From: Sphagnum magellanicum
Taxonomy: Eukaryota > Streptophyta > Sphagnopsida > Sphagnales > Sphagnaceae
Assembly: GCA_021904315.1 (NCBI GenBank)
Contig: CM038912.1
Coordinates: 14,037,061 to 14,101,060 of the forward strand
DNA length: 64,000 bases
Direction: 5' to 3'
Under the pieces are notes generated by a model. The model searched no databases. It was not told the DNA's origin and saw only the letters and a program-made list of their open reading frames with translations. The first letter of the stretch is position 1. Each line of letters starts with the position of its first letter. Shown in pieces: positions 6,401 to 51,791 of this stretch. Made by a program: the position numbers and the translations under genes.

Positions 6401-9325
6401 CAAGAGCTCGTGTTTGTTCTAACCCTTGAATATTGGCCACACAAGGTTCATTGGCCATTGTTTCAGGTACCTGCAATAAGAGAATGAGCTTCAGGCCTCA
6501 AAAAACTACCAGGTTGGACACATCCTTTAGCACGTCATCTACATGCAAAAAATCAACCATTTTGATTGGGGGAGAGTAGATCTAATAATGGGTAATATAT
6601 GGCATGATAAAAGCGTATCTAGTGAGGATGAAAAGTTTGCTGGTAGAGAAATCATGCAAACCTGCCAGCAAACTTTGCATGTAATCACACTCTAGAACAG
6701 TACTGCATAATTTGAGGATCTATGAGGTCATTCTTGGTGGAGAGTTTTTCCTACACATGGACAGTATAAGAAATAAGACAAATACAGGTTACCTGAGATG
6801 GTTGACTGTCATCATATTGTGTTTCAGGGTATCTCAGAGAAAATGCATCACTGTCCTGCAACTCATTGAGATGTTCCCTGTCCTTGTTTGGTCTCCTTCC
6901 AGCATCCACCTCAAGTCCTTCAATTCTCAATTCAGGAGGACCTTCTTCATCAGCTGAAGGGTTCACCAACTCCATCCCTTCTAGCTTCTGCTTATATTGT
7001 TCAAGTGTTCCCTCAAAGGGGGCTGATCGTAAGCTTGAACCAAATGGGTTATAATGGAGAAGAGTGGAGAGCAAGTGGAGAGCACTTTTTCTCACTATTG
7101 CCCCTTTGTCCTCCAAGCGACCAGCAGCAATACTTGCCACCAAGTTCCAGTGCCCAATAGAAACAGCACTCTGCTCACATAATTCTGACCATGTTTGCAG
7201 AACTTTGCTTCGAGTGTATGCATTTTGATCTCTTGCACGCTCCAACAAGATGTCCACCATTCTCTGTTATATACACAGCAGAGGAAGCAAAACAGTTTTA
7301 AGAATTCATACTAAGAAGTACTCCAAGGATCCTTCAGTCTTGATTTAAGAATTCAGACTTTCATGGGTTCTGCTCAATTTTGTTACTGAACAGTAAGCAG
7401 CAGATATCATGTATTCAGTTATAAAGAAACATCTTCAGGTCAAATACTCAAAAGCTTGGAACAGAGCAGCCCACCTGCTTGCTGCGTAACCGCAGTGTTT
7501 CATCACCAGCAGCATTATCCAATGAAGGATCCTTGGAAGCTTTGGCAACCAGCTTACCAACAACTTGCACAACAGCATTCCGCATCTTGTAGGCATCACT
7601 GTCCAAGTGTGGTGTGATAAGACTCAGGTTCTGTGTCATAAGCTTTGGCACCCGTTCAGCTAAAGCCACAAGAAAGTCACCTACACTCTCTGCACCAGAT
7701 TTATCATGCTTGAAATCCTCTGGATTAAGACCACCAATCTCTTGGAGGATAGCTACAAGCAGGCTGCTGTCATGGTACTTCTCTTCAGCAAGGGTCACTA
7801 AGTCAGCCAAATGTATTGGAAGGTTCTCATGCTTGTGCAGCAAATTTACTATTGTTGATGTCACAGGCTCTAGGTATCCATACTTTGATACACATGTCAC
7901 CACAATGTTGCAGAGAGCTTCCTTGAGCTCCTTGTCCTTCACATGCATTGGATTTTCAAGCAGAGTGAACGCTATCCTGAAAACAGTGGTACAACATGCC
8001 AGATGATGAAGATATGTTCTCTTGTTCTCAGTTTGCATTTGCCTAATTTTTTTTCCCTATTCCACTTGGTTATCAATTCTTGTTGTTTCATTGATTTGGT
8101 GATTCTCTTCCTTTATTTTATTAATCTTCTTTCATTTTCCTCTAGCAGGCAAAATTGGGCACAATGAGCATGACCACACAATTTCTCAAGGTGACAAAGG
8201 AACAAAGAAAAGCTGATCAAACGAGTCAAGGTTAACTCACTTGGCAAAGAAAGCAACCAGGCTCTCCTCAGGCTGTGACATGGAGTAGAGCTGTCGAAGG
8301 TCGACTTGCAATGCCGTTGCAAGGAGACGTACAATCCGAGTCCTATGAACATCCCAGGCCCATTGCACAGGCACACCTTTCTTTCCTTTCTGTGTTGGCT
8401 TCCTCTGCATTTGCATCAATAGCAACACTAGTTTAGTGCATTATCTCAGAGATGAGGGGAAAAAATGGAGCTGCAAAACCCTAAATGCCATGGCATGAAT
8501 AGAAAGATAGGTAGTGGTGATCACAACAGGACCGCTTCCCACATATTGAAACACGCACCTTTCCAACAGCTTTCTCAACTCGTAGCGCTCCCAATTCGGG
8601 TTCTCCAGCCTCCTCCAGAACAAGAATACAGTGCAAGAAGTATGCATAAATCTTGAGAGCGTTACGGTGAGAGTGAATCTGCTGCAGCATGTACGCGGCA
8701 TCTTCATTTGACTCCAGGGCAGCATACGAAAGTGCAGTAATGGAGGGATTGAGGACACCAAAATTGGAACAGAGGCTCTCGATCAAGCTTCCCTTTGCAG
8801 ATGCCTCCAGTGAGGAGAAACCTCTGAATGAGAGTGCCCAAGAAAAAAAAGCAGCACCGTGAAAAGTCATATTTTGGGGGACTTCCAACAACTCGCAAGT
8901 CGCAAAAAGACAGGAGGACATGGTGAAGATGATGGAAGGGATGAAAGGTGGTTGGCCGTTGTATGTACATACCTGATGAGGGAATACACTAGGTCAAAGA
9001 TTTGTTGCTCCTCGATGCACCAGACTTCTTTATCAGCTAGCTCAAATGTGAGGCCTGCTTCCGCATAGCCCAAAAAGAGTTTCACAATGCGATGAAAAGA
9101 AGAAAAATAGCCATCGAATAAAGCAGGGGAATGTCGCCGAATTCAGTGGGGAAGAAGAGGGAGGAGGAGGAGGAGGAGCAAACCTTTGAGAAGTTCCTCG
9201 ACATCACGAGCAGACAAGCTCTCGACATCCGTGACTTCCTGTACGACGAGACGCGATTCCTGATCCACTGCGCCAGGATCCTCCAGACTCCTCAAAGACC
9301 TGGGAATGACAAAGGCAGGGGCCAT
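426..9325 (-). CDS. CAP-D2: Condensin complex subunit 1 (CAP-D2), 20 exons
   Basis: HEAT-repeat subunit of condensin I, which compacts mitotic chromosomes with SMC2, SMC4, CAP-H and CAP-G. Exons in transcript order: 9184-9325, 8973-9054, 8559-8823, 8241-8404, 7475-7976, 6793-7263, 6222-6470, 5698-5889, 5204-5492, 4515-4948, 4198-4374, 3993-4060, 3629-3851, 3170-3269, 2685-2803, 2272-2329, 1923-2074, 1497-1725, 756-1207, 426-638. Every junction keeps phase and has GT...AG ends. The product is about 1,526 aa, against about 1,400 aa in Arabidopsis as I recall it. The start MAPAFVIPRSLRSLE resembles plant CAP-D2 N termini. The Cnd1 core includes MGDLAFRFPNLLEPWTEHMY and NAVLVLSHLILNDMVK (exon 13), then HISEMALRLEDEDERIANQV (exon 14). 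Exons 18-19 are acidic and probably disordered. The last exon is the weak point: the acceptor before 638 is a choice among several, and gives a basic tail. The gene looks intact. Confidence 0.93.
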
Positions 9326-19335: not shown

Positions 19336-19979
19336 TTTTGCAAAAGAAAATTTTCTTGAATAGAAAATAATGTCCTAAGAAGTTGCTTCAAAAACATTAA
19401 TGAAAACTCAGCAAATTGAATAGAGAATAGAATTACCTCCTTCAAACAATCTATAATTCCTAAATGATAAGTTGGCCATTCCCAAGTTTGGATCTGAGAT
19501 GCAAGAATTAAGGCCCAAGAAACATTCATCAATCTCACAATGGGATGATGGTGAGCAAAACTAGGAATCAACAAGGGAATCTAAAGTGGAATTCACTTCC
19601 CTATACTTGATGCTCTTGCCCCATGGGTTGTCTATTCCTGTTGTCTTTTCTAGCACTCTTGCTAAGGAGATTGAAATTTCAAGAGGTCTAGAGCTGTGTT
19701 CTCTTCCTCGGTTAAGATGGTCCGAGTGGAAGTTGCTAGAACTTTTTAAAGAAATAAAACACCTAAGCCACAATCTTCTTTTCTCTTAAATTGAGTTCGG
19801 ACATCTCCTTTGTCCTACATCTCTGATGCAGACTCCAACATTTGTCTCTTTCCCTTCCTCCTACCCCCTTCCATTCTCTTTTTGGTGGATGTTTCCTTCT
19901 CCAAGGCACCATGACCTTGAAAAAATGCAAGTTCCTATTTCTTTCGAATCTTGAACTCCAATGGAAGGGTGTTTTCATT
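19336..19979. other. Left flank of the CACTA element
   Basis: Not recognised. Overlapping ORFs on both strands (19561-19773 minus, 19586-19789 plus) have no known match. The stretch ends in CATT at 19976-19979, the putative target-site copy. Confidence 0.4.
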
Positions 19980-19991
19980 CACTACTAGAAA
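19980..19991 (+). repeat. CACTA left terminal inverted repeat
   Basis: CACTACTAGAAA, identical to the inverted right end at 34061-34072. Confidence 0.85.
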
Positions 19992-19997
19992 TTCTAT

Positions 19998-20130
19998 CAT
20001 ATGCAACCACCATGTTTGCAACTGGGATGCAATTGCCAGTCGCATGCAACTATGCAGGATTTTTTATGCAACTGCAATGGATTTTTGCCCTCTTTTTGGG
20101 TATGTATGCAACTATGGTGCAACTATGATC
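19998..20130 (+). repeat. Left sub-terminal GCAACTA motifs
   Basis: Repeated short motifs ATGCAACCA, TTGCAACTGG, ATGCAACTATGC, ATGCAACTGC, ATGCAACTATGG and GTGCAACTATG. The density matches the sub-terminal repeats that bind the TnpA-type protein in CACTA elements. Confidence 0.7.
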
Positions 20131-20307
20131 ACCTTCATCCCAACCTTTGGATGATTTATGTGATATACTATCGTATATATTTGATATGCATATACTCATA
20201 ATTGCATGTGCAACCAAAATAGGCCAACTATGGTATTTTGGTAAGTTAGGTACACATTTTTTGTAGGCATGTCTAGGATTAGGGTTGCTTACAAATGACA
20301 ATCCCAT

Positions 20308-21541
20308 TGATAAGGTTTAGGATATAGGTGAAAAATAACCTAATCTATTTTGCCACCTACTTAAAATAATGTATTTATCCCCAACTTTTAGTAGCTTGCT
20401 CCACAAACATTTAGAAGACAATTGATAATGGAAGATATCAATTTTACTTACAATAGTTTATCATTTGATGAAGCAAAACAATGTATATGCGTATTCAACA
20501 ATAAGGTCCAATTAATCCCCTCAAGATTACAATATGTGGGTTTGACATGTGGAAATAATCTATTTTATTCCAACAATTATCCAATACAAGTGAGGGTCTC
20601 ATGGCACATATACACCTTATAGTCCATGTAATGCATGAGTTGGATCCAAAGTCAGCCCTGATAGTCATGATGGGTAGACATGTGAATAAGATATTGTCAT
20701 TCATTGACTATGAATATCGATAGGATGGTTTCATTACCCCAATCCATAGACTCCAACCCGAGTGTAAAACAATTTAACAACTCTGCTTTTGACACACTTG
20801 GGTTGATAAATTTCAATTCAGAATAGAAGAGACCATGAATGCAATAGGGCAAGAGGAAACCACAAAGGTGAAAACATGATATATGGAAAACAGGGGGACC
20901 AAAAAAAAACCTGACCTAAAACATAAAACCTTCTACACTTTGATATGACAGACTATAAATCACACAACATAGTTTGTAGCTGACAATGCAAAACATGGGT
21001 ATTCTGGTGAAGGTAGTAGCATCAAATGTATTGTTTACATGAGACTAGAATATTCCTGAACATATGTATGTATCCAGATGCCCAGAGTAGATTCTAGCTT
21101 TTCAAAAGGATCACAAAGGGTAATACTTTCAATCAACCAAAACCAAGGTGAACTACATATCAGCAAAGAGGAGGCATGATTGCCTACTTACAAAGAGTGA
21201 TCAAGATGGATTTGATGCACCCCTCAAATAATAATATGCTAGATTTTTGGGGAGGGATCAACCTGAGATTGAGATTGAAATATCCTAACATGCTTGGATT
21301 ATTGTTAGGTAGACAATTTGAATCGACCAATAAGAATAGTGGTGATTAGCACCAAGTCTAAAAGGCTACTCAGTAACAACTACAACCAAATAACTAGGTA
21401 GAGACTTAGCCTTACAATTTGCATTGCAAACACCACTTAAAAAACCAGCTCAATGTCAAGAACGTCATTCTAAGCAATGTATTAACATAATAAATATGAA
21501 AGGAGAGAACAATGTGTCAATGCCCCTTACTCAACAATAGC
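20308..21541. other. Internal CACTA sequence, no recognised gene
   Basis: AT-rich DNA between the left sub-terminal repeats and the rhamnose-synthase fragment. No domain or repeat stands out. Confidence 0.4.
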
Positions 21542-22964
21542 CTACATGTTGGGTTCAAATACATACTTGATCAAGGATTCCTTGATTAACAAGACCTCAA
21601 GGAACTCCCCCTGCAGCTTTGATGCATCAAGTTCATTGGTTTTCCAAGGTGCAATGATGACCTTTGCTTGCTCTTCTAGGGTGAAATTCTTCCATGAAAA
21701 TCTTGGTTTGATATATTGTTGATACATCTCCAAAATCTCATTGTAGCTCACCACTCCTAGATTGGTGAAATTCCAGATCCTTCGCAAGTTACGCTTTGCC
21801 ATTTCAATTGAGATAGGCAACAATTCATCCAAGATTGTCATGTTGTTAGGGGTGTTCACCATCTTTTAATACCAAGAGATCTTTGTAATAAAATTCCGGG
21901 GGTTTTGTAGATCTGAAGTGATGGGCATCCGCATGCGCAGGGTGCACACATTGTCAAACTCTTTAAGAAGCTCTTCAACTTGCCCAATATACAAACTAAA
22001 ATTAGATTTCCACATTTTGGACATGCAGTTTTCCACAAGAGCAAGACATTGAATAGCCCAGGAAATGCCCAAACAGTTGACCAATTAACATGTGGACAAT
22101 GGACACCTACACTGGACCTAAGCTTTTCAAAGAAAGATAGGGGTTGAACTCTCAACATGTAAATCCCCTACAATTGTACTAAAGCAAAACAGATATGGAA
22201 CATATTCACTCCTTCCCACAAAAACAAAATGTTAGATGCAAACATCTATAAAGGTTCACATCTCACATTACACAGTTTAAGCACTCACCGTGGCCTTTGT
22301 CTTGGAATAGTATGAACCAACAAATTTGGTGTGTCATCTTCCTTGAAATCAATTCCACTACTAAGCTAATGATTTTTGTCATACTAAAAAATGCACCCTG
22401 TTCAAAATTGATGAGCAACAAGTTGCTTTGCTTGTAAACATCTGCCAAAGTCAAAGTACACACAACGTTTGCCCGGATGGTCTCAACCTTGTGGTTTTCA
22501 CACCAATCCACATTTGGCCGACCTGTCACACCTCCTGCATTGAATACATGAGAGGGCTTTGCAGATGCTATATCTACCTCTAATTATGTTCGATTCTCCA
22601 ATCGGCTAGATCCCGTGCTTCTAGCATATCTATCTAAGAATACCACCAATCCAGCCAGTGTGTCCATAGATTAGAAATTTCAATCGCTATTTTGAATTGC
22701 CATTCTCTTGGGCATTCAATGTGACATTCCCAGCCTTGTGGCTGTTATCATTTAGAGATGCATGCTCATTTGGTGTGCCAAAAGTTTCAACCTCAACTTT
22801 GACTTTAGGGTTGTTCTGAAGATCAGCTAGTTTCTCTACCCCAGATATGGACAACATACAAGGATGGGGAACTAATGCTCTAGAAACATCCCCCCACTAG
22901 TTAAAGTGGCTGATGTACCATTGCAATGTCTTCCGCAAGCCCTCTTCCCATGTGGTGCGCTCCT
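21542..22964 (-). pseudogene. UDP-rhamnose synthase (RHM), C-terminal fragment
   Basis: RHM makes UDP-L-rhamnose from UDP-glucose for cell-wall polymers. The fragment starts at the end of the 4,6-dehydratase domain (ERTTWEEGLRKTLQWYIS), crosses the linker (VEKLADLQNNPKVKVE) and covers the whole NRS/ER epimerase-reductase domain: FLIYGHTGWIGG (the GxxGxxG cofactor loop), GGVTGRPNVDWCENHKVETI, VEELLKEFDNVCTLRMRMPI, LLPISIEMAKRNLRRIWNFT and IKESLIKYVFEPN. Recognisable exons are 22289-22964 and 21542-21979. The kept intron points to DNA-level capture, not a retrocopy. Several frameshifts and stops are present (for example TAG in place of a tryptophan codon before GDVSRAL, and a TAA within KISWY-K). 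The intron's acceptor reads CAA before GTTGAAGAG where CAG is expected. The fragment is broken and sits inside the CACTA element, on the same strand as the E2 fragment. Confidence 0.88.
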
Positions 22965-23380
22965 TGCATCAAGCACAAAGTGACATATCCCCAAATAAAA
23001 GCACACATCAGGAACCAGACATGAAAACACATGCTATTGTCCCCCTTAACAACCATAACCAGACAATATGCAAACCTTGGAAAGGGTTACAAGTGGTGGT
23101 ATATTCATAATGCCAATCAAATATATATTTGAAAACACGTTATTTGCAAGTGGCAGATTCCACTGTTTCAGCCATAACAAGCACGAATGGACAAAAAGAA
23201 AAAACACTATTATAAGAGAAGTCAGAGTGTCTTAGAACAAAATGTTACTTTCGAATAGCACCATCACCATACATCTTACCCAAAGAATATCTCAGAATGT
23301 GAAGCTCTGTCTGAACCCCAACTTCATTCAATACATAATTTCTTGCTCATAAATGTTATTATAGCTAACTGCATAATGTC

Positions 23381-25793
<2,413 letters not shown>

Positions 25794-25807
25794 CCCCCCC
25801 CCCCCCC
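25794..25807 (+). repeat. Homopolymer of 14 cytosines
   Basis: An uninterrupted C run. Its length is a likely site of sequencing error. Confidence 0.85.
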
Positions 25808-26094
25808 ATTTTCAAATATTGTTTTTGAGGTCCATTTTGATGTCAAGATACTAAAAGTAACAACATTATTGAAGGCACAATATCTGTGAAATTTGTGACT
25901 GGTCCTATGAACCTTGCTAGTTTGTATTGAGTTGAAGTTTTATTCTAGCAAATGAAACTGAAAAAAAATAAAAATTTGTAAGCAAGATCTACAACAAAAT
26001 AGACAAACAAATTCTGGTAAAATGTTAAGAACACTAAAAAGACTTCCCCCCCAAGGCTTTGTGTCTTGGCCTGACTCCGAGCTCCCTCCTTTTG

Positions 26095-26470
26095 TGTCTG
26101 CTTTGTGTTTTTTTTCTGCAATCTGGTACTATGTGATTTTGTGTCTTTTGCTGCAATTTTGGTGTCTGATTTTGTGTGTGTGTTTTGCTGCCTGCAATAT
26201 ACTGTGTGGTTGTGTGTGTTTTTTCTTGCAATTTTGGTGCGATTTAAATTGTTATTTTTGCTACAATATGGTATGTGATTTTTTTGTTGTTTTTTGTTGC
26301 AATTTGGTTTGCAATTTTTTGTTTTTGCGTGCGTAATTCTATAGGTTTTTTTGTAGCTTGGTATGTGATTTTTTGTTTTTTAGTGTGCAATTTTGTGTTT
26401 TTCTACAGTCTAGTGTGTTATTTTCTGTTTTTTATTGCAATTTCATGTGTGAATTTTTGTTTTTTCCAAT
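26095..26470 (+). repeat. T-rich degenerate minisatellite
   Basis: Roughly ten diverged units of about 35-40 bp built from TGCAATTTGGTGTGTGATTT followed by a T/G-rich tract. Reading frames across it are low complexity and not genes. Confidence 0.8.
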
Positions 26471-28221
26471 AATCCAATCTTCCACATGTCATGTTTTTAT
26501 TGTAGTAGTGTATTGTTTCCTTACAGATTCCTTAAAGATTTTCAAAAAAAAAATTCTAGTTGTTTTTTCAACAGATGGATTGTTTTGCTAGTGATCATAT
26601 CAACCACTCTCTTCCTTATCATCTGTGGACTTAGTAACACACTTGTTTTATATTCACCATCATCTTTGATATAACACAAACAGAAACAAATAGAACTTTC
26701 TTTTCTTCTTTCTCTTTTGACATCATTTCTGAACTAAATGTTGCATTTTTTCCCCCTCCAAGATTCCTCAAGAAACAATGACATTGCATCTGATTATTGT
26801 AGATGTATTATTGTCAAGATTTTCTTCCAATTGCACAAGCCACACTGTAAAGAGATGTGATGCTCTGTGAGCTTTTGTGCTTGAAGAATGTGAAAAAGTT
26901 CAATTACCAAACTAGAGTTATCTCCCTAATGAGTTTGTAGATCACTTTTTTCTTTAGGGATTGGGTGCTTGTCTTGTTAGTCCAAATGCCCCGTTTGTTA
27001 CAAGAGAATTGATATGTGCTTACTAGCTCTTAAAAATCACATTAGAAATAGCCACTTGTAGAACATCTAGTATTATCTTGTGGGTTTACATGTTACATCA
27101 CAAAGTCACCTAGTTTTAGGGGACCAAGTTTTCCAAAATAGTCACACATGGGAGAGATCAAGAGACAAGAACTTGCATGAGAAACAAACATTGAATTTTT
27201 TTGGAGAAAGCTTTGAAGATAATGCATGTATTGCAGAAATTGTGAGTGTTTCTTGGGGCTTGAGAGTTTAGAAAAATCAAGTCAAAAATGTGCAGCCATT
27301 GTTTGAAGTTTTGGTGGAGGATTTGTAATACCAGAGTACATGGTTCCAATCGCAACAGTCCCACCTTTCACACTTTGCATTCTCCCGCCCTTTTTCCTAT
27401 ACTCAGGCCCTTACATCACCACCACCTCTGATCACCTGCCTGCCAGAACAAGTTTTATATATAGAAATTACCAAAGAGATATATGATTCATGTTTTGATA
27501 ATATTTCTTATAGGTTGTGTACCTTAGCTCCTTTGAAAGACCATTCTGTAGCTAAGCACGTCTTAAATGTTGGGAATGTTCTTGGTTTTTTTGTTTGATT
27601 TATCTGTTGTCATGTTTCAATTTTCTAGTATCTAATGGCATTCCTATCACATGGAAGTTCTCTTGTGTACTATACCATGCTGGAGTGCTTGTCTATAGTC
27701 TTTGAAAGTATTCTTGGATCTTATTGATGGGGTTCATGTTTTTCTCTCCTCTATGTTGTTATTTATGTTGTTTCTCTCTAGTGTTAAGTTTTCCAACCTT
27801 TTATGGGCCTTCTAAGGAGAAGGCAGAGTACTAGTTTGTCTGTAATCTCAAAGTCAAGCAATACCTTTTTTAGGATTCCTTATTGCTTGTGAGCAGTCCT
27901 CCTGCAAAATGGGGGATTTCTTGGTTTCCTTTATCAAGATTGGAGATTTTTGCTTGAGCTGGAAATAATTTCTTTAAATTCAGAGCTTGCAAAGTCTATC
28001 ACTATTCTTGGAAATTATTGCCTTTATCCAGAGTGTCTTCAAACTTTCAATTAAGATCTAGATTTGTGTCTTTTTTGTTCATCAGACTATTTTTTCTTGT
28101 ATCAAGTTTGCTTTCATGTCCAAAAATAATCTTATAAATCTCCATGATTTCGGTAATGAAAATATGAAGTGGTTTTTTTTTAGGAATTTGCTTATCATGC
28201 TCACTTCTGTAATTTGTAATT
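26471..28221. other. Internal CACTA sequence, no recognised gene
   Basis: T-rich DNA upstream of the GIY-YIG relic. I looked for reverse-transcriptase motifs in the plus-strand frames that run into the relic and found none I could support. Confidence 0.4.
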
Positions 28222-28999
28222 AAAGTCTCTCAACAAGCTTAGAAGGTTAAGGCAAAAGCACCTTAAACTTGTTGCCAAAATTTGTTCTGTTTCATATAGA
28301 GGTGTAATCTATGTAATCCATAACACTCATTCTAGTAAAGTGCTATATGTTGGTCAAACTTGTAGCTTAGTCTTTGCAAGATCCTAAAAGCATGTAAGAG
28401 AAGCCCGAATATTGGAAAAGCTCACCAATTTTGTTTTTAATTTAAAACTCTTCGTACGTGCCTAAGTCAAAGAAGTTTTTTGTTCCTTTAGTATATTTGC
28501 TAATGAAAAAATGTGGGAGATTTATGGATTCAAATGGGAAAATTGAATGTTAAAGGTTCAATCTTGTTGCCACAACAATAGGAAGAAATGGATGACTGTC
28601 CTTCATTATGTGTTTTCCAGATCCTATGACTTAGAAAGAAGGTTATGTAGCCAAGTTTGTAAAACCAATCCTATGTTATGGAGAAAAGGTCTTAAGAATG
28701 TCCTAAACTTTCTGTTATGCATCCCAGAAGGTTTGGAAGTCCAAAGTCAATCCCTTGTTGTTGGTTGTGCTCCATTATCTCTTCATGTGCCCTTCTTCTA
28801 TAAAAAGATCTTATTTGTCATGATTTACCTTAGTAATCCGTATGTTCTTTCCATAGAACTTTTGGCTGGATACAAAAGAAATTGGATTTTTTCTATAAAG
28901 TTATACCTCATGGGAAGGTGTTTTCTGAATTTCTTACCAAATACTTTGTTAGTTGTCTTCAATGTCATTAGTCTTTATATGCATGCCTTTGATATATAG
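28222..28999 (+). pseudogene. GIY-YIG nuclease domain relic
   Basis: The plus strand reads RGVIYVIHNTHSSKVLYVGQ, the GIY-YIG signature (IY, ten residues, then YVG), followed by an Arg-containing FARS and KHVREARI as in the catalytic helix. Further on come NEKMWEIYGF and KKWMTVLHYVFSRSYDLERR, similar to the end of stand-alone GIY-YIG domains. Stops interrupt the domain (after FARS, after LFVRA and before MLKVQS). The source could be a Penelope-like retroelement endonuclease, a homing-type nuclease or a host gene; no reverse transcriptase is visible beside it. Decayed. Confidence 0.6.
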
Positions 29000-29485
29000 C
29001 CCTATTTGTGTGATTAGGGTTGTTCATGATTGATAAGTTTGCCATACGAATCTTTGTTTTTTTTGGATTTACATGTCTCATGTTAACAATATATGACTAG
29101 ATTGTATGTTTTGCTAGCTTCTACCCATTCCCTATGTCTAACGTGTTGTGTGTGTGCTTGAGAAAAGAAAGCAACGTCAAAGAAAGCTTGGGTTGAAACC
29201 CCACCACAAGTCGATATGGTGAATGCCATTAGGCTACAAAAGAACACATTGGCAGTAGTACAAAGTGGGAAGCATGGTGGTGACTTTGCAAGGTGCAATA
29301 AGCAAGCATGTAAACATGGTGTTACAAGTTCAGAATGCACATGGAATGCTGGACAATGTGGGCACACAAGACAGTGGAGTTCTTGTGACGCACTCCCAAC
29401 TCCTTAAAGGGCTCAAATGTGAGCCCAAGTAGAAGCAGCGGAAAAGGAGGAGTCGGAGCATGCTCCCTAGCTCACAACACTTTGA

Positions 29486-30363
29486 GGGGTAGAGGGGGCG
29501 TGTTGGAGCTCCGGGATGGGACTAGGAAGAGTTGACAAGCTTTAGTCACTCACACGGGCCTGCACACAACCCACACAAAGTGGTTAGTGCAAAGTTGGAG
29601 CACCCTTGGTGCTAGGACGAGCCACAGGCAACACGGACACACAAGACTCATCACGGCCCGGACTTGGGGGAGCCACCACCTTCCCCCTTATAGTATACTC
29701 TGTAGCTCTCCACGGAGGCTACATCCAAATGGCTATTTTTCCCAGGACTCCCGCGCAGGAGTCCCGAAATCGCGCCAAATTGGACTCCCACAACTTTGGA
29801 GCCCCATAACTTTGCGAGCAAAACTTGGATCGCGATGTGGTCTTAAGCAAAGTTGTAGCTTTGTTGAGAGCTTTCCAACGCCGTGTCGCACTTCCGAATC
29901 GAACATCGGGAAGAGGTTGATTCTCGACTTTTTGTGGTCGGGAGTCAAACTGGCAGTTCGACTCCCGGCCTTTCTTTTGGCCATAACTTGTGTTTCAGAT
30001 ATCCAAATGAGTAATGTGAGCCCATTTTAGACATCTACGCTCCAAGAGCTTTCCAATGATATAAAAAACGCCATAGGAAAATGAGGTTTGACCCCTACAA
30101 TCGCTCTCTCAAGTTTCGGGAGTCCACCGGGACTCCATCTCCCAAGTGGGAGTTGCCTTGGGAGTGTGAGGGCTCACTCCCTCACACTTTCTAACACTCC
30201 CGAGAGTATGTGATGTGACTCCCGGGCTTCCTCTTGGCCCGCACTCTTGCAATGCCTTTGCTTTGACTCCCGGGCTTCCTTCCTCTTGGTTCGCAACCTT
30301 GCAACCCCCTTAACCTTGGTCACGAGCCCAAAGCTAGGGTTGCGACATCTTGCCAAGTGTCAC
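29486..30363 (+). mobile_element. Possible 3' end of an old LTR retrotransposon
   Basis: A purine-rich tract (29481-29499) is followed directly by TGTTGGAGCTCCGGGATGGG, as a polypurine tract and the start of a 3' LTR would look. The block is clearly richer in GC than the CACTA sequence around it, and holds a TATA-like stretch near 29690. The right border is uncertain (about 30363). No partner LTR and no gag or pol is recognisable in the window. It looks like a broken fossil nested in the CACTA element and therefore younger than it. Confidence 0.35.
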
Positions 30364-30699
30364 AATGTCTTAATTAAAAGGTAAAATTGAGCCATGGGCA
30401 CAAGGGACTTGCAAACTATTGTGCCTCGTGTGGAAGGGCTAAAAGCAACATGTGTGAATCAACATGGGGTGAAGGAGGGGGTGTATGTGATTAGGGGCTA
30501 TGTCAAAGGGTGTAACCACATTCACCGATGGGCAGGCAAGTAGTAGAAGCCCAAATGGGGCAACACCCAAAAACACAAGCACCAGACATGGCCTTGGACA
30601 ATGAAATAAAAGTAGATGCCTAGCTCAAGGTTTTGGCTAAAAGTTGTATGCAACAACAACGGGCTTCAAAGCAAGCTATAGAATTTGAAGCTACAAAAT

Positions 30700-32960
30700 G
30701 AAGGGAGAAAGGTTTGCCACCGCATAAGGTGCAAGTGACAAGGCATGGCAAAATTGATGGTGCATGTGAAGGGAAAGATGCATGGGATGGTGCGATTAAG
30801 TCACTAGCACCTCGGATTTTGAACATGGCAACAATTACGGTTACAGAATAGGACCCTGCAGACATGGCTAGACTTTGCTTGTAATTGGATGGGAAATTTG
30901 AATACCTAGGTGGTGAATTAAGTGTTGTTGGCTTTAAGGATTATGTAAGGCGATTTATGAAAGGAGAAAGAACACACTTAAAAAGAAGGTATGCATAGAA
31001 AGGTGCCAAAGCCTGCCCACTTGGAGTGGACCGAGAACAATAGGACAAACTAGTGATATATTGGCAACAACGTGACACCAAGACTAAAAGTGAACACATG
31101 GTTGATGCAAGAGGGGCAATTGCAAATGTAAGCCACCTTGGGCATGGTGGTAAGGCAGCTATAAAAGCAAAATTGGCAAGTTAACCCTAAAACCCTAATC
31201 CTTTGTGATGGCCAAATGGAAACTAGAAAATGTTGAGGTTATTATGCATTCACATGCCACATACAACGCTGAGCACTAAATGATGTCTAAAATGGGTGAA
31301 TGCAGAAATCCAAGCATTGTTGAAGCCCATCAATATCTGAGATGGTTGCCGTGGGACATGATTATAGTGGCACACCTGGGTATCCAATGAGTTTTCCTAG
31401 TTGCTTCATTTTTATTTCTGCCTTCATGAGTTTGATAGTAATTAGTAAGTGGAATACTTATATTGGATTTATAAGGATCTTTTGATGGGTTTATGGGGAT
31501 GGAATCATAATCTCCCAATTTGTTTTCTCGAATGACTACCATTGAAAGGAAGCTGCTAGAGATGAGTGGCCAAGTCTCCCAAGTTCTTGAAGGGATGGAT
31601 AAATTAAATGTTAAGGTAGAAAGTTTCATGCAACAATTACTAGCATGTCGAGAAGATGGTGTGAATGTGAGAAACCCAAAAACTATTGTAGCCATTGTAA
31701 ACATTGAAAAAGTAGATGTTACTACAAGGACTAGATCCCCTGAGATTCTTGGTGTTGCAAAAAGCCTGCATGAGGTTCTCCATTCAGATCTTGATGGACA
31801 AGGCTTAGGCACAACAATGGTTGAGAGTGCCATTTTATCCACACAATTAGCTCCAAAAGCCCATCATATGTTTACAAGAAAAGGGGTGGGCCAACAAGTG
31901 GATGGTGTTGTCCTTCCACATGTCCCCAACTATGTGCTAATAGGAGAGGATATGGGGCAGAATCCTAATATGCTAGGGAAGGACATTCAAGTTGGAGTAG
32001 CTTGCAAAGGCGATGATTGTGTAGATGGGAACAACCCCTAACGCCCACCTTCAAAGGTACGATCTAAGTGCCCAACATGACCAACACATTGAAGTTAGAG
32101 TCTACACAATGTTATGGATTGTTCAATTGTGGGAATAATCTTGCACTTTTCATCAAATGTGGCATATGTGTGGGATGTTGGGAATTGCACCAACTACATG
32201 GTTAAAATAGGACATAAGTTAGATTGTGGAAGCTATATTTGTTGTTCTTTTTGTTACAATCTAAAGATTAAGAACATACCCACATTGTTTGGGGCCTAGG
32301 TACATACAAGCATGAAGGAAATCATTGACATGGTTTCACATTTGTATTCATTGATGGATTTGGTGTGGCAGAAAGTGCAAAAAAAGGTGGTAATTATGCC
32401 AGCACCTGAAAGAGGTGTGAGCAATTAGCTACGCTCTAATATTGGTGCAAGGGTGGGGAATGTAGGAGAGAAGGCATGGCAACAAGTAAGTTAATACCAA
32501 CATGCTCTTGAGTTTCTATAGTTCATAACTAGGGAACACAAATGCCTTGTTTGACACAATGTTGTAACAAAAATTTATTCCATTTTCCTAAATTGGTTGT
32601 TCATGGTAAATTGAATGAAGGTTTTTTATTAGCGTTGATGTGTAGTTTAAAGTAGGGGAAGCAATTGTCTTATGTAACCTTGATGCTGAGGTTGTAGCAA
32701 AGGGGCTATTAACAGGTGTTGGAGGACAAGGATGTGTCCACCATGGGGTGCCAATCAAGGAGTCATGGTTCCAAGTCCAGTTAAGTGAAATTGTGGCAGG
32801 TAAAGGCAACACCCCGTTGTTGGTGCCAAATGAGAATGATGATCCCCCATAATGTGTATTAAAGGATGTAATAGGTTCAAACATTGTATGGGAAGGTCGT
32901 TTAATGCGAAAGCATGCTTCAGTTAGGTGCATTATAGGTCGGGAGCTAGTTGATTTTTGA
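30700..32960 (+). pseudogene. CACTA TnpA-like (Ptta/En/Spm family) protein, decayed
   Basis: Recognisable blocks in order: FEYLGGELSVVGFKDYVRRF (30897 on); LVIYWQQRDTKTKSEHMVDA followed by RGAIANVSHLGHGGKAAIK (31049-31180), which matches the conserved W/R/HxxG pattern of plant En/Spm-type accessory transposase proteins; a coiled-coil-like stretch from 31520 (KLLEMSGQVSQVLEGMDKLN); and a C-terminal domain (ESWFQVQLSEIVAG, PLLVPNEN, VLKDVIGSNIVWEGRLM, 32650-32925). In-frame stops and frame changes separate the blocks; introns may account for some. In this family the protein binds sub-terminal repeats and assists the TNP2-type transposase, which I do not find here. Confidence 0.65.
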
Positions 32961-33299
32961 ATCCTAAAACCCTAATGAGTAGTTATGGCCTTTTTTGGGT
33001 GTCAATGATATTTTAAACATTGTGTGGTTTAATAGACTTGATAGCGTGATGGACTCCTGGGTGCTGTAATTGGAACAATGGCCATTAAACCCCATTGGAT
33101 GGAATTTCAATGTTATTACAAAGGGTAATTTGTTGGTTAAGTAATTGCAGATTTTTTACATGCAAAATTACAAATCACAGATCAATGTGTGTAATATTTA
33201 TTGGTTGATTTTTCAGCACTAGTGGAGTATAATAGAAAAGTGATATGTATAATGTACATTAGTTAAAGTAGGGTGTGTAAGGAACCCCAATATGGGCAA

Positions 33300-34060
33300 G
33301 GCAATGGTTAATGCTACTAATTTAGTTGCACATGTAACTATAGTGGCACACCTTAACCTTAAAACTAACAATGACAAAAGTTGCATGCCATGGGCCAGTA
33401 ATTACATTTGTAATTAAATCTAATAGTTGTTATGCTGCCATGTGGCACACTATAAATGGTATGATGAAAACCCTAAACCCTAACCCTAACCCTAACACCT
33501 GTAAAGTGGGACCATGTGACACATGGTGATTCAAACTCTCAAAATACTAGTTGCATTTGCAACTACATTGTGTGGTCATTAGGTTGTCATATGGCATGAT
33601 CTTGATAATTCAACGGGTGTTAAACCCTATAACCCTAACCTTAATCTTCCCCACATGTACAAAGACATAGCATGGTTGATCAAGCCTTAAACCCAACACG
33701 TGTCCCCACCCTAACGGCTACGACTTAGACGGTCCAAATTAATTAAAATAATTCTTAAAACTAAATATTTAATTACAAAATAAAAGTACACGTGTTCGCA
33801 TAGAATTGGGTTAGTTAATTAACATGTAATGCAATGGGAACACAACCCTTATAGTTGCATGCAGTCGCACTTACAATTGTTAGTCTAGAATATGGGTGGA
33901 TGAAACCGTATAACCCAACCGTATGTACTTGTCATATACGGATGGTCAGATGCAATTACAATTTTTCTACAACTTGTCTTAGGCAATTGGGCTAATTTTC
34001 AATTGCAAGTGTCGATTGTAACTAAAAACCAGTTGCATAAGATAGTTGCAAAATGGTATT
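33300..34060 (+). repeat. Right sub-terminal TAGTTGC motifs
   Basis: Many copies of TAGTTGC/GCAACTA in both orientations (for example TAGTTGCACATGTAACTATA, TAGTTGCATTTGCAACTACA, CAGTTGCATAAGATAGTTGC), mirroring the left end. Confidence 0.7.
33466..33500 (+). repeat. Interstitial telomere-type repeat
   Basis: AACCCTAAACCCTAACCCTA and onward: one plant-type CCCTAAA followed by CCCTAA units, inside the right sub-terminal region of the CACTA element. Similar short runs occur near 25284, 31186 and 33624. Confidence 0.85.
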
Positions 34061-34076
34061 TTTCTAGTAGTGCATT

Positions 34077-36719
34077 TGGGCAATTAAGATACCAACCACA
34101 ATCCAAGAGATGTGGAGAGCTCTAATTTCTCAACATGTATACATTGTGTTGTCTATCTTTAAATCTCTTCATATTTCAAAAAGTCATGGAATCTTAAAAA
34201 TGGCACCCCTTCGAAAAAACACAAAATTGAAATACCTTCAGTGGTAAAAAGAATTCAAAGTTAGTGTCAATGAAAACCAAATGCCATTGGAAGATAAAAT
34301 GAAATTCAAAATGGAATAAACAAATGTGGAACAATTAGATCAAACATACTTGTAAACCACCCGTTTATGGACTTTGGTCCCACTGACTTATTGTTCCCAC
34401 ATCTTACTCCTTTGAATCACATTTTTGGACGTGAACTATCTAAAGAAACAATTTTTCCAAAGAGGAAGACTCCATTCCTAAATGTAGTTTTATAATGGTT
34501 GTAGATCTTTAGCCTCGAAAAGCTAAACGGAAATATCAGTAATTGTGGCAGAAAATAGTTTATGCGCCTCCACTTCCAACTACAAATAGGTGAATGTTAG
34601 TTTTCAATTGCTTTACATACAAAAACTTGAATATCTTAAACTGGGAAAGGATTTACTTGAGACCAAAAAGTGGCCTTGTGAAGCCACTTATCAAAAGTTC
34701 CATTCGAGAATCCTTGTTTTGGGAATTTCGCCACTTCCTTTAATAATCCGGATTGGTTCTAGAGTTTCAACTAAGACATCTTCTACTCATTCAAGACTTG
34801 TGCAGAATTAATGTCTATAGCTTTTCAGTGAACATTTTAAGCTCCGAGTTCATGGACTTGAATTTGTTTCGAGAACTCAAGACCAATAGCAAGGTCACAA
34901 ACTAGCAAATGGTTCATGAAGGTAGAAGTATGATCCTTCCAGACCTGATCCATTGCCTCGTCCATAAGTGCTTCACAATCTAGATGGTGACTTTAGTTTT
35001 TCATTCGAAACTTCTTCATAATAAAGTTTCACGGCCACATCCATTGTAGCCAAAAGCTCATGCTACACCAACAAGAAGTGATTTTTGTAAATCACATGTC
35101 TCAACTAGAAAACTTGACAAATTGAATTTGAAAGACTAGGAAGGAAACAAACCTTGTACACATAGTCAAAAAAATTCTTTTTCGTCAAATAGTACCAATT
35201 CTTCCTTGACTTGTTCTCACATCTTTTGTAGACATTGAGACTGATGATATCCTTAAACTGGACCAATGGAATCATGTTGATGTTTTGGATGTGAAAGAAA
35301 TCATGTACCAAACTAAGCTTCACGTGATCAAATTCGATAGACCTAGAGGGTTGAAAAAAAAATCATGGATAATTTCAATTTCAATTTCAATGCATAAAGC
35401 AATGAATAAAAATAAATAGATAAATAGAAGCAAATGAAGGGAGCTTTGAAACCCACATTTTAAAGTTTGAATCTTATTTGTTCATGTTTGTCATTATAAT
35501 GAGGAGGTGGATGAAGCCCTCTCTCGTATCTAGCATGATGGAATCCACTATAATGTGCCAAGAGAGGTCATGCGGGTGAATTCTAGAAATATAAGGCATC
35601 CAAGTTTGTAGCCGGTTGGTTGCCATCCCACACATAAAACATTCTTCCACTACGTTTCTGGAGATCCTCATCTAAGTTCAATGCCTCCTTGAATGTTGCA
35701 TTCATAGACTTCCAGTGATCATCCCATTCATGGATGTGATTTGCAACAAATGTTTATTCACCCTACCAATTTGTGGGAGAGACATAGAAAATTTTGTCAC
35801 CCTCTCAATAGCCCATTTGGAACACATGTTCCATCTTGAGCACATCGATCTTGAGGGCTAGCCTCACAGTAGGCATGGAAATCATGTGATGAAGGGGAAT
35901 GTTCATATGAACCTTGGGATGAATCTTATGCCTCTTTGGGACCTTAATTGTCTTGAACTTGTGCTCCATCTGGACCTAGAGGACTTCCTTGTCTCCAATT
36001 GTTCTCATTGCCTCCAAGTGCAAAGAAGGCCCAATGGTCAAACCCACCTCCTGAATAAACAATGTCATGGTTGAATTAGGTTACCTTTGAAACAATTCAC
36101 AAGAATAAATAAAGCAGGAAGATGGTGCAAGTTTTTTTTATAAAAAATTGGATAACAAATACCTATGTAAAAGTGGTTGGTGGCACAAATTGAAATTCAT
36201 GGACATCCATTTTCACACCTTCTTGTGAGTCAAAGGTATGCAAATCCAAAAAGTGTAGACAAAGTTCAATTGAGGAATACAAAAATTGGTAAAAAATGAA
36301 CAACAAAATGTGTAGTGAAGAATGAGAATACCTCCCTAGAATCCTTCTCTAACAATCTTTGTTGAACCAACTCAACAACTTATGAAGATGGTGGAACCTA
36401 CAAAAGACAATAAATTGAGTAACAAAAAAATATGCATAATTTTGTAGGACGAGGCAAATTGTCTTGCCTTGACTGAACTCCAAAGAAAACAAAATAACTA
36501 CAGAACTTCAAAAGTTTATAGAAATTCAAAACTTACAAACAGAAAATCAAAAAACTTGAAAAAGTATGAAATACCTCTATAGATGGACTCTCTATAGACT
36601 CTACAACACAAGTTTATGATGGGAATTAGGTAACAATAAAATGAAAAACTACAAATTCGAAATCTATAAGCTTCTAAACTCATGTTTTTTCAAAAGCTTG
36701 TAAAATATTTGATTATTTG
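34077..36719. other. Right flank of the CACTA element, no recognised gene
   Basis: AT-rich. Near 34845-34930 the minus strand resembles the fragment at 18344-18577. Minus-strand ORFs at 35105-35323 and 35474-35671 match nothing I know. Probably an unrecognised decayed repeat family. Confidence 0.4.
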
Positions 36720-50687: not shown

Positions 50688-51101
50688 GGCAGCAGCTTGC
50701 TGACTGCCCTTCTTGGTTCCCAGTACCCTCCCCCCGCCGTCTCTAGCGCTCATTGCCTTTTGTCGTTGTGCGTAACCTATCTGTCTCGCTGCACATTAGT
50801 TTTTCTGCTCTAGATCTCTCCAGCGACTCTTCTAGCATTGCATCATCTTCTTACTAGCACCTGATAGAATCGAAGATCTTGTTGCTCTGGCAGTTTTTCA
50901 GTCTGATCGATGTGCGATTCATTCATATAGTGCTGCGATATTTGGGGTTTTACATCTGTGTTCATTTTGCAAGTTTCGGCTTCAGTCTTTACTTGGATTG
51001 GAGCCATCTTGGATATCTGCGATCGTAGTTTTGCAGAAGGTGTTGCAGCTCAGATTCAAGTGAAACTAGTACGCTACCGGGGTGTCCAAGTTCAAGGCTA
51101 T

Positions 51102-51791
51102 ATGGCTCATGTGCAGGTTGCCAGTACTAGACGTTCTGACCACTACGTAGCTGCATGCAGCGGGGTGTTGATTAGAAACCTCAGCATGTCCACAACAAGT
51201 GAAGCTTTATGTGGTCATTTCAGTCGCTTCGGGGGCGTGAAGGACGCGCTCATCCCCAAATACAGAGGAGTTTCTGCAGGACTTGGGATCGTGAGCTTCA
51301 ACCATCCCAGAGATGTCGAGTTTGTCATGGCACAAAGCACGCACATCATCGACAGTGTACAAGTCGAAGTGGGCCGCCTTCAGTGGGATCGACCCCTGCA
51401 AGATCATGCTACTTTTGTAGATCAGCAGCAATATTCGCAAGTCGAGGAATCACCACGCCTTTTCGTGAGTCGATTACGTGAATCAGTTACAGCAGAAATG
51501 CTGGAGACATTCTTCAGTCAGTTCGGCACAGTCACGAAAGTGAGAGGGCACGGCTTTAATGGTGAAAGGCGGCCGCAATATGATCATCATTATGGCAACA
51601 CTAGATCACAAAGTAGTCTCGACCAAGCTGCTGCTACAGGCAGCGGCTACGGTTTTGTAAGCTTCAATTCCAAACAAGCACTAGGTGCTGCAATGCCTCC
51701 GGGTCGTAATAGAGCTTTCCACCTTATCCATGGAGCAATGGTGGAGGTGAAACGAGCAATTCCGTATAGTCGACAACGGACTAGGAGCTAG
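51102..51791 (+). CDS. Two-RRM RNA-binding protein, intronless
   Basis: 229 residues from the ATG at 51102. The open frame extends upstream to 50958, but only a GTG occurs there, so I take the ATG. RRM1 (about residues 21-95): VLIRNLS as RNP2 and AGLGIVSFN as RNP1. RRM2 (about residues 119-221): RLFVSRL as RNP2 and GSGYGFVSFN as RNP1, with a long insert (about 35 residues, His/Gln/Ser-rich) between beta-2 and beta-3. A QQQYSQVEESP linker joins them. The C terminus is basic (SRQRTRS). Paired RRMs of this kind bind single-stranded RNA in the nucleus or cytoplasm; the exact subfamily (hnRNP/Musashi-like or other) is not clear. Base composition is richer in GC than the surroundings, and the frame is unbroken, so it is likely a real gene. 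RRM1 is the weaker match. Being intronless, it could have arisen by retroposition. Confidence 0.8.
   Translation: MAHVQVASTRRSDHYVAACSGVLIRNLSMSTTSEALCGHFSRFGGVKDALIPKYRGVSAGLGIVSFNHPRDVEFVMAQSTHIIDSVQVEVGRLQWDRPLQDHATFVDQQQYSQVEESPRLFVSRLRESVTAEMLETFFSQFGTVTKVRGHGFNGERRPQYDHHYGNTRSQSSLDQAAATGSGYGFVSFNSKQALGAAMPPGRNRAFHLIHGAMVEVKRAIPYSRQRTRS

Follow-up and report, generated by a model that had tools for sequence, protein, structure and literature searches.

A probable CACTA deletion derivative carrying pieces of two host genes in the peat moss Sphagnum magellanicum

In the sections of the literature considered here, CACTA transposons with captured genes are known from soybean, Arabidopsis, Chenopodium, rice and maize (PMC1947982, PMC8978399, PMC8903248). 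For example, the soybean element Tgm-Express1 of the wp allele is reported to hold five gene fragments in 5.7 kb, to lie in the intron of a host gene and to have its fragments spliced into chimeric mRNAs (PMC1947982). For Pack-CACTA elements, a model of neighbouring insertions followed by aberrant excision has been published (PMC13317346). Across the portions of the literature examined, cut-and-paste transposons that have captured genes in plants are all from flowering plants; there are also cases from animals and fungi. In the genome of Sphagnum divinum, the most abundant repeats are given as unclassified (7.8%) and CACTA (6.8%), and the 'gene capture' mentioned in the relevant sections of that paper refers to sex chromosomes (PMC9946827). 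Literature searches on CACTA, Pack-MULE and gene capture in mosses and bryophytes brought up no bryophyte case of capture by a CACTA element, the broad bryophyte search having been uninformative. Here, a CACTA element with host-gene cargo is described from Sphagnum magellanicum, in a window of 64,000 nucleotides, the whole stretch analysed (contig C6:14037061-14101060 of an assembly of 438,994,042 bases in 31 contigs; C-numbers denote contigs of this assembly throughout).

The window element is very probably non-autonomous and derived by deletion from a large CACTA DNA transposon; it carries pieces of a UDP-rhamnose synthase (RHM) gene and a ubiquitin E2 gene. Alignments within the assembly show that the two genes were copied, that they share one arrangement at many sites, and that internal deletion and decay followed. 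A CACTA element can be recognised by terminal inverted repeats that begin CACTA and recur across the genome, by mirrored and clustered sub-terminal repeats at both ends, and by a TNP2-type transposase; the first two are present in the window copy, and the third was found in a relative at C8:5400762-5423463, not in the window copy. The ends and the uninterrupted target sites place the element at exactly 19980-34072, the span proposed in a preliminary description of this DNA, with the following boundary features:

19976..19979, no strand: left copy of the target duplication CATT (flank comparison; empty sites 4 bases shorter in 8/8)
19980..19991, plus strand: left terminal inverted repeat CACTACTAGAAA (exact match)
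19980..20229, plus strand: left sub-terminal repeats, five GCAACT motifs over the outer 250 bp, each on the plus strand (motif count)
33823..34072, minus strand: right sub-terminal repeats, three GCAACT motifs over the outer 250 bp, each on the minus strand (motif count)
34061..34072, minus strand: right terminal inverted repeat (exact match)
34073..34076, no strand: right copy of the target duplication CATT (flank comparison; empty sites)

With up to one mismatch allowed, CACTACTAGAAA occurs in the window at these two places alone, 0.43 being expected by chance, and genome-wide it was counted 764 times (365 + 399) compared with 155 (81 + 74) for a reversed control; a chance origin of the element ends was dropped. 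The mirrored sub-terminal repeats, first described as GCAACTA, are borne out by the GCAACT counts, as other 250-bp windows hold at most two on the plus strand and three on the minus strand (start 33300, itself in the element near its right end). The left 401 bp is matched with 88-100% identity at 40 scored places (the best 40 of 64 candidates, window included), and the right 413 bp with 85-100% identity at 40 scored places (the best 40 of 180 candidates, window included) and by two short matches. These counts of element ends, like those of cargo loci below, rest on best-scoring candidates and are lower bounds. Aligned end to end as inverted repeats, the two arms score at shuffle level (59; shuffle mean 50, maximum 90), and a clear inverted repeat between them is limited to the outermost 12 bases. 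Pairs of CACTACTAGAAA ends only ~150 bp apart, resembling a short relative of the miniature inverted-repeat type, are seen on C2 at 7518609-7518760, 7531507-7531659, 10880554-10880705 and 34880109-34880260. Five of the best 40 scored right ends lie on contig C20 (4.72 Mb, ~1.1% of the assembly, possibly a sex chromosome), a distribution that may be biased.

The flanks joined without the element match 31 genomic places besides both flanks themselves, and all eight of the uninterrupted relatives that were aligned (the best 8 of the 31) are without the element, 75-81% identical and 4 bases shorter at the junction. Since these relatives are 4 bases shorter, the span 19980-34072 entered in a single insertion with duplication of CATT, which upholds the matching CATT flanks noted earlier. 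The flanks (19780-19979 and 34073-34272) are themselves part of another dispersed repeat, represented by these 31 matches. Host genes near the element encode a condensin subunit 1 N-terminal domain (window 7448-8056, minus strand) and an RRM protein (50931-51791, plus strand).

Between these ends, the cargo and the remaining interior are arranged as follows:

19980..20636, plus strand: CACTA left arm, common to kin without RHM cargo at that point (C12:8792752, C19:5951980; sequence comparison)
20637..20651, no strand: filler of ~15 bp between the CACTA arm and the RHM 3' flank (alignment)
20652..22970, minus strand: captured RHM block, from the 3' flank to coding sequence (CDS) position 908 (91.5% identity to parent C10:17146450-17148806)
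21527..21979, minus strand: RHM exon 2, decayed (alignment)
22289..22970, minus strand: 3' part of RHM exon 1, decayed (alignment)
22971..24852, minus strand: captured ubiquitin E2 block, truncated (93.3% identity to parent C16:4714866-4716747)
23380..23524, minus strand: E2 exon 4 (acceptor 23525-23526 reads AA)
24047..24151, minus strand: E2 exon 3 (acceptor 24152-24153 reads AA)
24651..24778, minus strand: E2 exon 2 (acceptor 24779-24780 reads AA)
24852..24853, no strand: internal deletion breakpoint, common to the C4:24053489 copy (sequence comparison)
24853..29380, plus strand: CACTA internal sequence, repeated in other family copies (sequence comparison)
30353..33100, plus strand: CACTA internal region with the TnpA-like gene of the preliminary description (repeated in kin; no Pfam match)

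The RHM piece comprises CDS positions 908-2061 of 2061 with the intron kept, and contains the whole C-terminal epimerase/reductase domain region; the E2 piece comprises exons 2-4 of 4, lacking only the first exon and keeping its introns. The gene pieces are thus as first described, down to their minus-strand orientation. The parents were also located, with their exons placed by hand from splice signals and paralogues. On C10 (17.15 Mb), two exons encode an uninterrupted 686-aa protein with the two-domain layout of RHM, the N-terminal half matching 4,6-dehydratases and the C-terminal half a 3,5-epimerase/4-reductase (4qqr, E 1.5e-163), and the RHM cargo was drawn from a single 4.9-kb stretch of this contig. 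On C16 (4.715 Mb), an uninterrupted 148-aa E2 is encoded in four exons (UQ_con, E 4.6e-55). Pfam scans of single open reading frames from both window RHM pieces gave sub-threshold matches only, and the identity of the genes rests on their alignments with the parents and on domain scans of the parent proteins. Neither donor region matched the CACTA arms above 70 bits. Two loci considered as 'RHM-only' and 'E2-only' carriers were rejected and not counted, both being the parents, with flanks without a visible CACTA-arm match. The donor E2 (C16:4714866-4717787) has a paralogue in the same orientation ~8 kb away (C16:4706892-4709643). An imperfect, overlapping direct repeat with ~75-bp spacing (24455-24684) runs from an E2 intron into exon 2, and is also present in the C16 parent.

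Parts of this cargo were found at no fewer than 14 loci, the window included, so that host genic DNA lies between the element ends while its parents stand elsewhere, and more than one insertion with the same cargo has moved after capture, two marks of a gene-capturing element. A left end was listed for 9 of the 14 loci and a right end for 2 more (C16:18.2M and C22), with none listed for C5, C10:15.26M and C14; RHM could be aligned in 11/14 and E2 in 10/14 (11 rows). Kin without RHM cargo at the corresponding point, C12:8792752 and C19:5951980, are like the window element over the first 656 bp and then diverge, and C12:20686098 is like it over about the first 381 bp. The junction between the RHM and E2 blocks (22970 to 22971) is common to all nine fetched copies that span it (window, C18, C4, C10:1.35M, C5, C8:24.6M, C13, C15 and C16:18.2M), which places capture before spread. 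In a phylogenetic tree, six copies group together (100/99) with the C10 parent next to them; the order within the clade is unresolved, and the branches measure 0.032-0.048 for the copies against 0.0075 for the parent. Independent captures were dropped as an explanation.

The fullest arrangement is seen in the C18 copy (4060650-4103047). Here, the CACTA arm and ~15 bp of filler are followed by RHM 17146450-17148806, E2 4714866-4717787, RHM 17148956-17150842 and an inverted piece of the RHM 3' flank (17146356-17145943), with joins that are blunt or overlap by 1 bp. The 2.92-kb E2 block holds all four exons and ~245 bp of upstream sequence and substitutes for 149 bp of RHM (17148807-17148955), the RHM gene being otherwise complete around it. 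The opposite E2/RHM side is contiguous in C18, C8:24.6M, C5, C13, C15, C8:5.42M and C20. The earlier view of two adjacent host genes therefore holds for their common strand, but not for simple adjacency, since E2 is nested in RHM in the fuller copies. Past its internal breakpoint, the window copy continues with the sequence that starts at C18 4094779, and the ~29 kb missing relative to C18 includes E2 exon 1, the remaining RHM and the transposase match. The C4:24053489 copy shares this breakpoint but has its own target duplication, TAT; the element has therefore moved in its deleted state. Taken together, the comparison indicates that the window copy is a later deletion derivative, truncated by internal loss and not by capture of fragments. 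Other common deletions, at ~window 23200-24085 and ~400-1879 of the cargo-search query, are found in C5, C13, C15 and C16:18.2M.

Transposase sequence is found in a cargo-bearing relative at C8:5400762-5423463, which has CACTA-type ends (the left a variant), a CTT duplication and, on its left side, the captured 5' parts of E2 and RHM. An open frame of 811 aa in this copy matches Transposase_21 (E 6.4e-63) and DUF4218 above cut-offs and Transpos_assoc below, and the next frame matches DUF4216 below cut-off; judged by position, the transposase runs opposite to the TnpA-like region. A non-autonomous element is one without a transposase match, and by this measure the window copy is non-autonomous and the C8:5.42 Mb relative is not. 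Since an open transposase frame is present in one or more of the relatives with cargo, the family is not strictly non-autonomous. Inside the window element there is also a GC-rich insertion resembling a solo long terminal repeat (TG...CA, 29386-30347), with a 5-bp duplication TCTTG at 29381-29385 and 30348-30352; related sequence also occurs in the fetched loci C16:18.16 Mb and C15:1.46 Mb.

As to how the cargo was acquired, the sequences show that an ancestor of the family copied RHM from C10 and E2 from C16 with introns and flanks, the intact parents staying in place, and we infer that the composite, now present at many sites on different chromosomes, spread by transposition. The blunt or nearly blunt joins, the replacement of 149 bp of RHM and the inverted RHM 3' flank at the far end suggest that a break in the RHM copy was repaired by DNA synthesis with template switching, and that this brought in the E2 copy. 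It is possible that there were two steps, RHM being taken first and E2 later, during repair. The most serious alternative is that two CACTA copies flanking the RHM gene were excised together and E2 was added in a second event, as in the tandem-insertion mechanism proposed for Arabidopsis Pack-CACTA elements in the parts of the reports considered (PMC13317346, PMC8903248). The derivation of the RHM block from one 4.9-kb stretch would suit such an origin; however, E2 lies inside RHM without CACTA ends at its borders, and simple excision of a tandem pair yields neither a nested E2, nor a 149-bp replacement, nor an inverted flank. The model thus fits contiguous capture only and, as a whole, is rather doubtful.

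A further alternative is that the E2 block was an independent mobile unit, such as a Helitron or a Pack-MULE, which jumped into the RHM cargo. Its discrete, nested form could be taken that way, but its two 40-base edges show no inverted repeat beyond shuffles, a direct repeat outside them is limited to 0 bases in the parent and 1 in C18, with no target duplication, and the 149-bp replacement is not a clean insertion. In addition, no extra copy of the block beyond these elements and the parent stood out among the matches listed, and this origin is highly improbable.

The extent of decay bears on whether the cargo could still be of use. A 1-bp deletion at RHM CDS 1493 is present in 9/9 spanning copies and a 4-bp deletion at CDS 629 in 3/3, and because these frameshifts are common to all spanning copies, the RHM frame appears to have been broken before amplification. 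The RHM piece in the window has 10 premature stops and 8 indels relative to the parent frame. For E2, an intact reading frame with intact splice sites was found in 0/10 aligned loci. The lesions comprise a stop at codon 51 (C18), two frameshifts and a lost acceptor (C8:24.6M), frameshifts (C10:15.26M and C4), a frameshift in exon 1 (C8:5.42M and C20) and a missing CDS end (C5, C13 and C15); in the window copy all three acceptors read AA, while the coding exons are free of stops and indels and the gene's own stop codon is kept. Pooled over six copies and polarised with a paralogue-based ancestor, C-to-T type loss amounts to 142/702 in CHG (20.2%), 33/221 in CG (14.9%) and 111/2470 in CHH (4.5%) contexts, with 47/4273 (1.1%) in the reverse direction; these cells are not independent, and the contrast is large. 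The CG/CHG loss fits methylated transposon DNA. The C10 RHM parent shows 4 parent-only changes with 0 C-to-T, just four changes underlying the contrast with the copies.

For 19 of the 23 rows that gave a value, the ratio of nonsynonymous to synonymous change (dN/dS) between copies and parent is 0.2-0.6, and the full range is 0.10-0.81; copy-copy values are 0.45 for RHM (15 pairs) and 0.61 for E2 (6 pairs). In comparison, a neutral RHM simulation with the observed mutation spectrum gave a mean of 0.61 (range 0.36-0.99), and the native control, C11 against C10 RHM, gave 0.09. A constraint reading of the low copy-parent ratios was dropped because the neutral simulation gave a similar value. It might still be proposed that either the element or its host profits from the captured genes, by way of protein or of chimeric transcripts, given that both were captured with introns and upstream sequence at the level of the family and that the sections on Tgm-Express1 report spliced chimeric mRNAs (PMC1947982). 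Against this stand the common RHM frameshifts, the absence of an intact E2 from all 10 aligned loci (4/14 loci being outside the E2 alignment), copy-copy ratios not distinguishable from neutral and, in the window copy, the missing upstream sequence of the two genes together with the three lost E2 acceptors; a functional role is most improbable. The loss of E2 splice sites argues against chimeric transcripts from the window copy, and a chimeric protein is very unlikely, given the lack of upstream sequence in both genes, the lost acceptors and the disrupted RHM frame. The copies are better regarded as probably methylated and silent passengers that would be moved in trans by kin transposase, make no working RHM or E2 protein and could at most be a source of small RNAs matching the parents. 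The weakest proposal, a decayed native locus in which RHM and E2 remnants were always neighbours between coincidental CACTA-like ends, could draw on the single strand and the kept introns, but is practically negligible within this genome, where 8/8 aligned target-site relatives are without the whole element and 4 bases shorter, intact parents stand on C10 and C16, and further copies of the element on other chromosomes contain the identical join.

Several observations weigh against the deletion-derivative reading. First, in 9/10 paired kin the target duplication is 3 bp (AAG, TAT, TCA, TGT, TGG and GTT by script; CTT, TTT and ATG by eye), whereas that of the window copy is 4 bp (CATT) and a 3-bp reading is mismatched; it may reflect a 4-bp cut, or 3 bp with one base added at the junction. 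Secondly, the large relative C8:24594092, read by eye, has no target duplication. Thirdly, six-frame scans of the window copy (24853-29385 and 30348-34071) gave no Pfam transposase or TnpA match and one marginal unrelated match, so the 'TnpA-like' label of the plus-strand gene is unconfirmed and the region is best described as a repeated part of the element. Finally, the RHM copy-copy value of 0.45 is within the neutral range but on its low side, and weak past constraint may have acted. The C8 relative (24594092-24637840) spans 43.7 kb and has matching arms, its left end is a variant, and it may have arisen by recombination between copies.

A more far-reaching proposal would be that a CACTA element with its own transposase took up two complete genes, introns included, from two chromosomes in a single repair event based on replication with template switching. 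It would then have spread them as passengers in a bryophyte, and silencing of these copies at CHG and CG sites would now bring about a many-to-one small-RNA conflict involving the intact RHM and E2 parents. In this full form the proposal is speculative and unlikely to hold. In peat moss (Sphagnum) both donors, the breakpoints, at least 14 carrier loci and uninterrupted target sites are known. This makes two questions testable: by which route, tandem excision or template switching, a CACTA element acquires genes, and whether the donor genes suffer when captured copies are silenced.

Compared with known systems, the locus is a well-resolved new example of a known phenomenon, in a bryophyte. Like Tgm-Express1, as far as the sections cited describe it (PMC1947982), it has CACTA ends around pieces of unrelated host genes with introns kept; it differs in that one gene is nested in another, cargo parts occur at 14 or more loci and the splice sites have decayed. 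In contrast to the Pack-CACTA and Pack-TYPE elements of Arabidopsis, rice and maize, one or more cargo-bearing relatives here have an open transposase frame, and the nesting and inversion are at odds with simple excision of a tandem pair. The transposase domain set is the same as in the Jozin-type elements of Chenopodium, for which the sections considered describe the set TAD, Transposase_21, DUF4218 and DUF4216 and captured gene fragments at the 5' side, outside the coding region (PMC8978399). In that flowering plant, however, one captured fragment is given as 80 bp (PMC8978399), whereas here whole genes were captured, in a moss.

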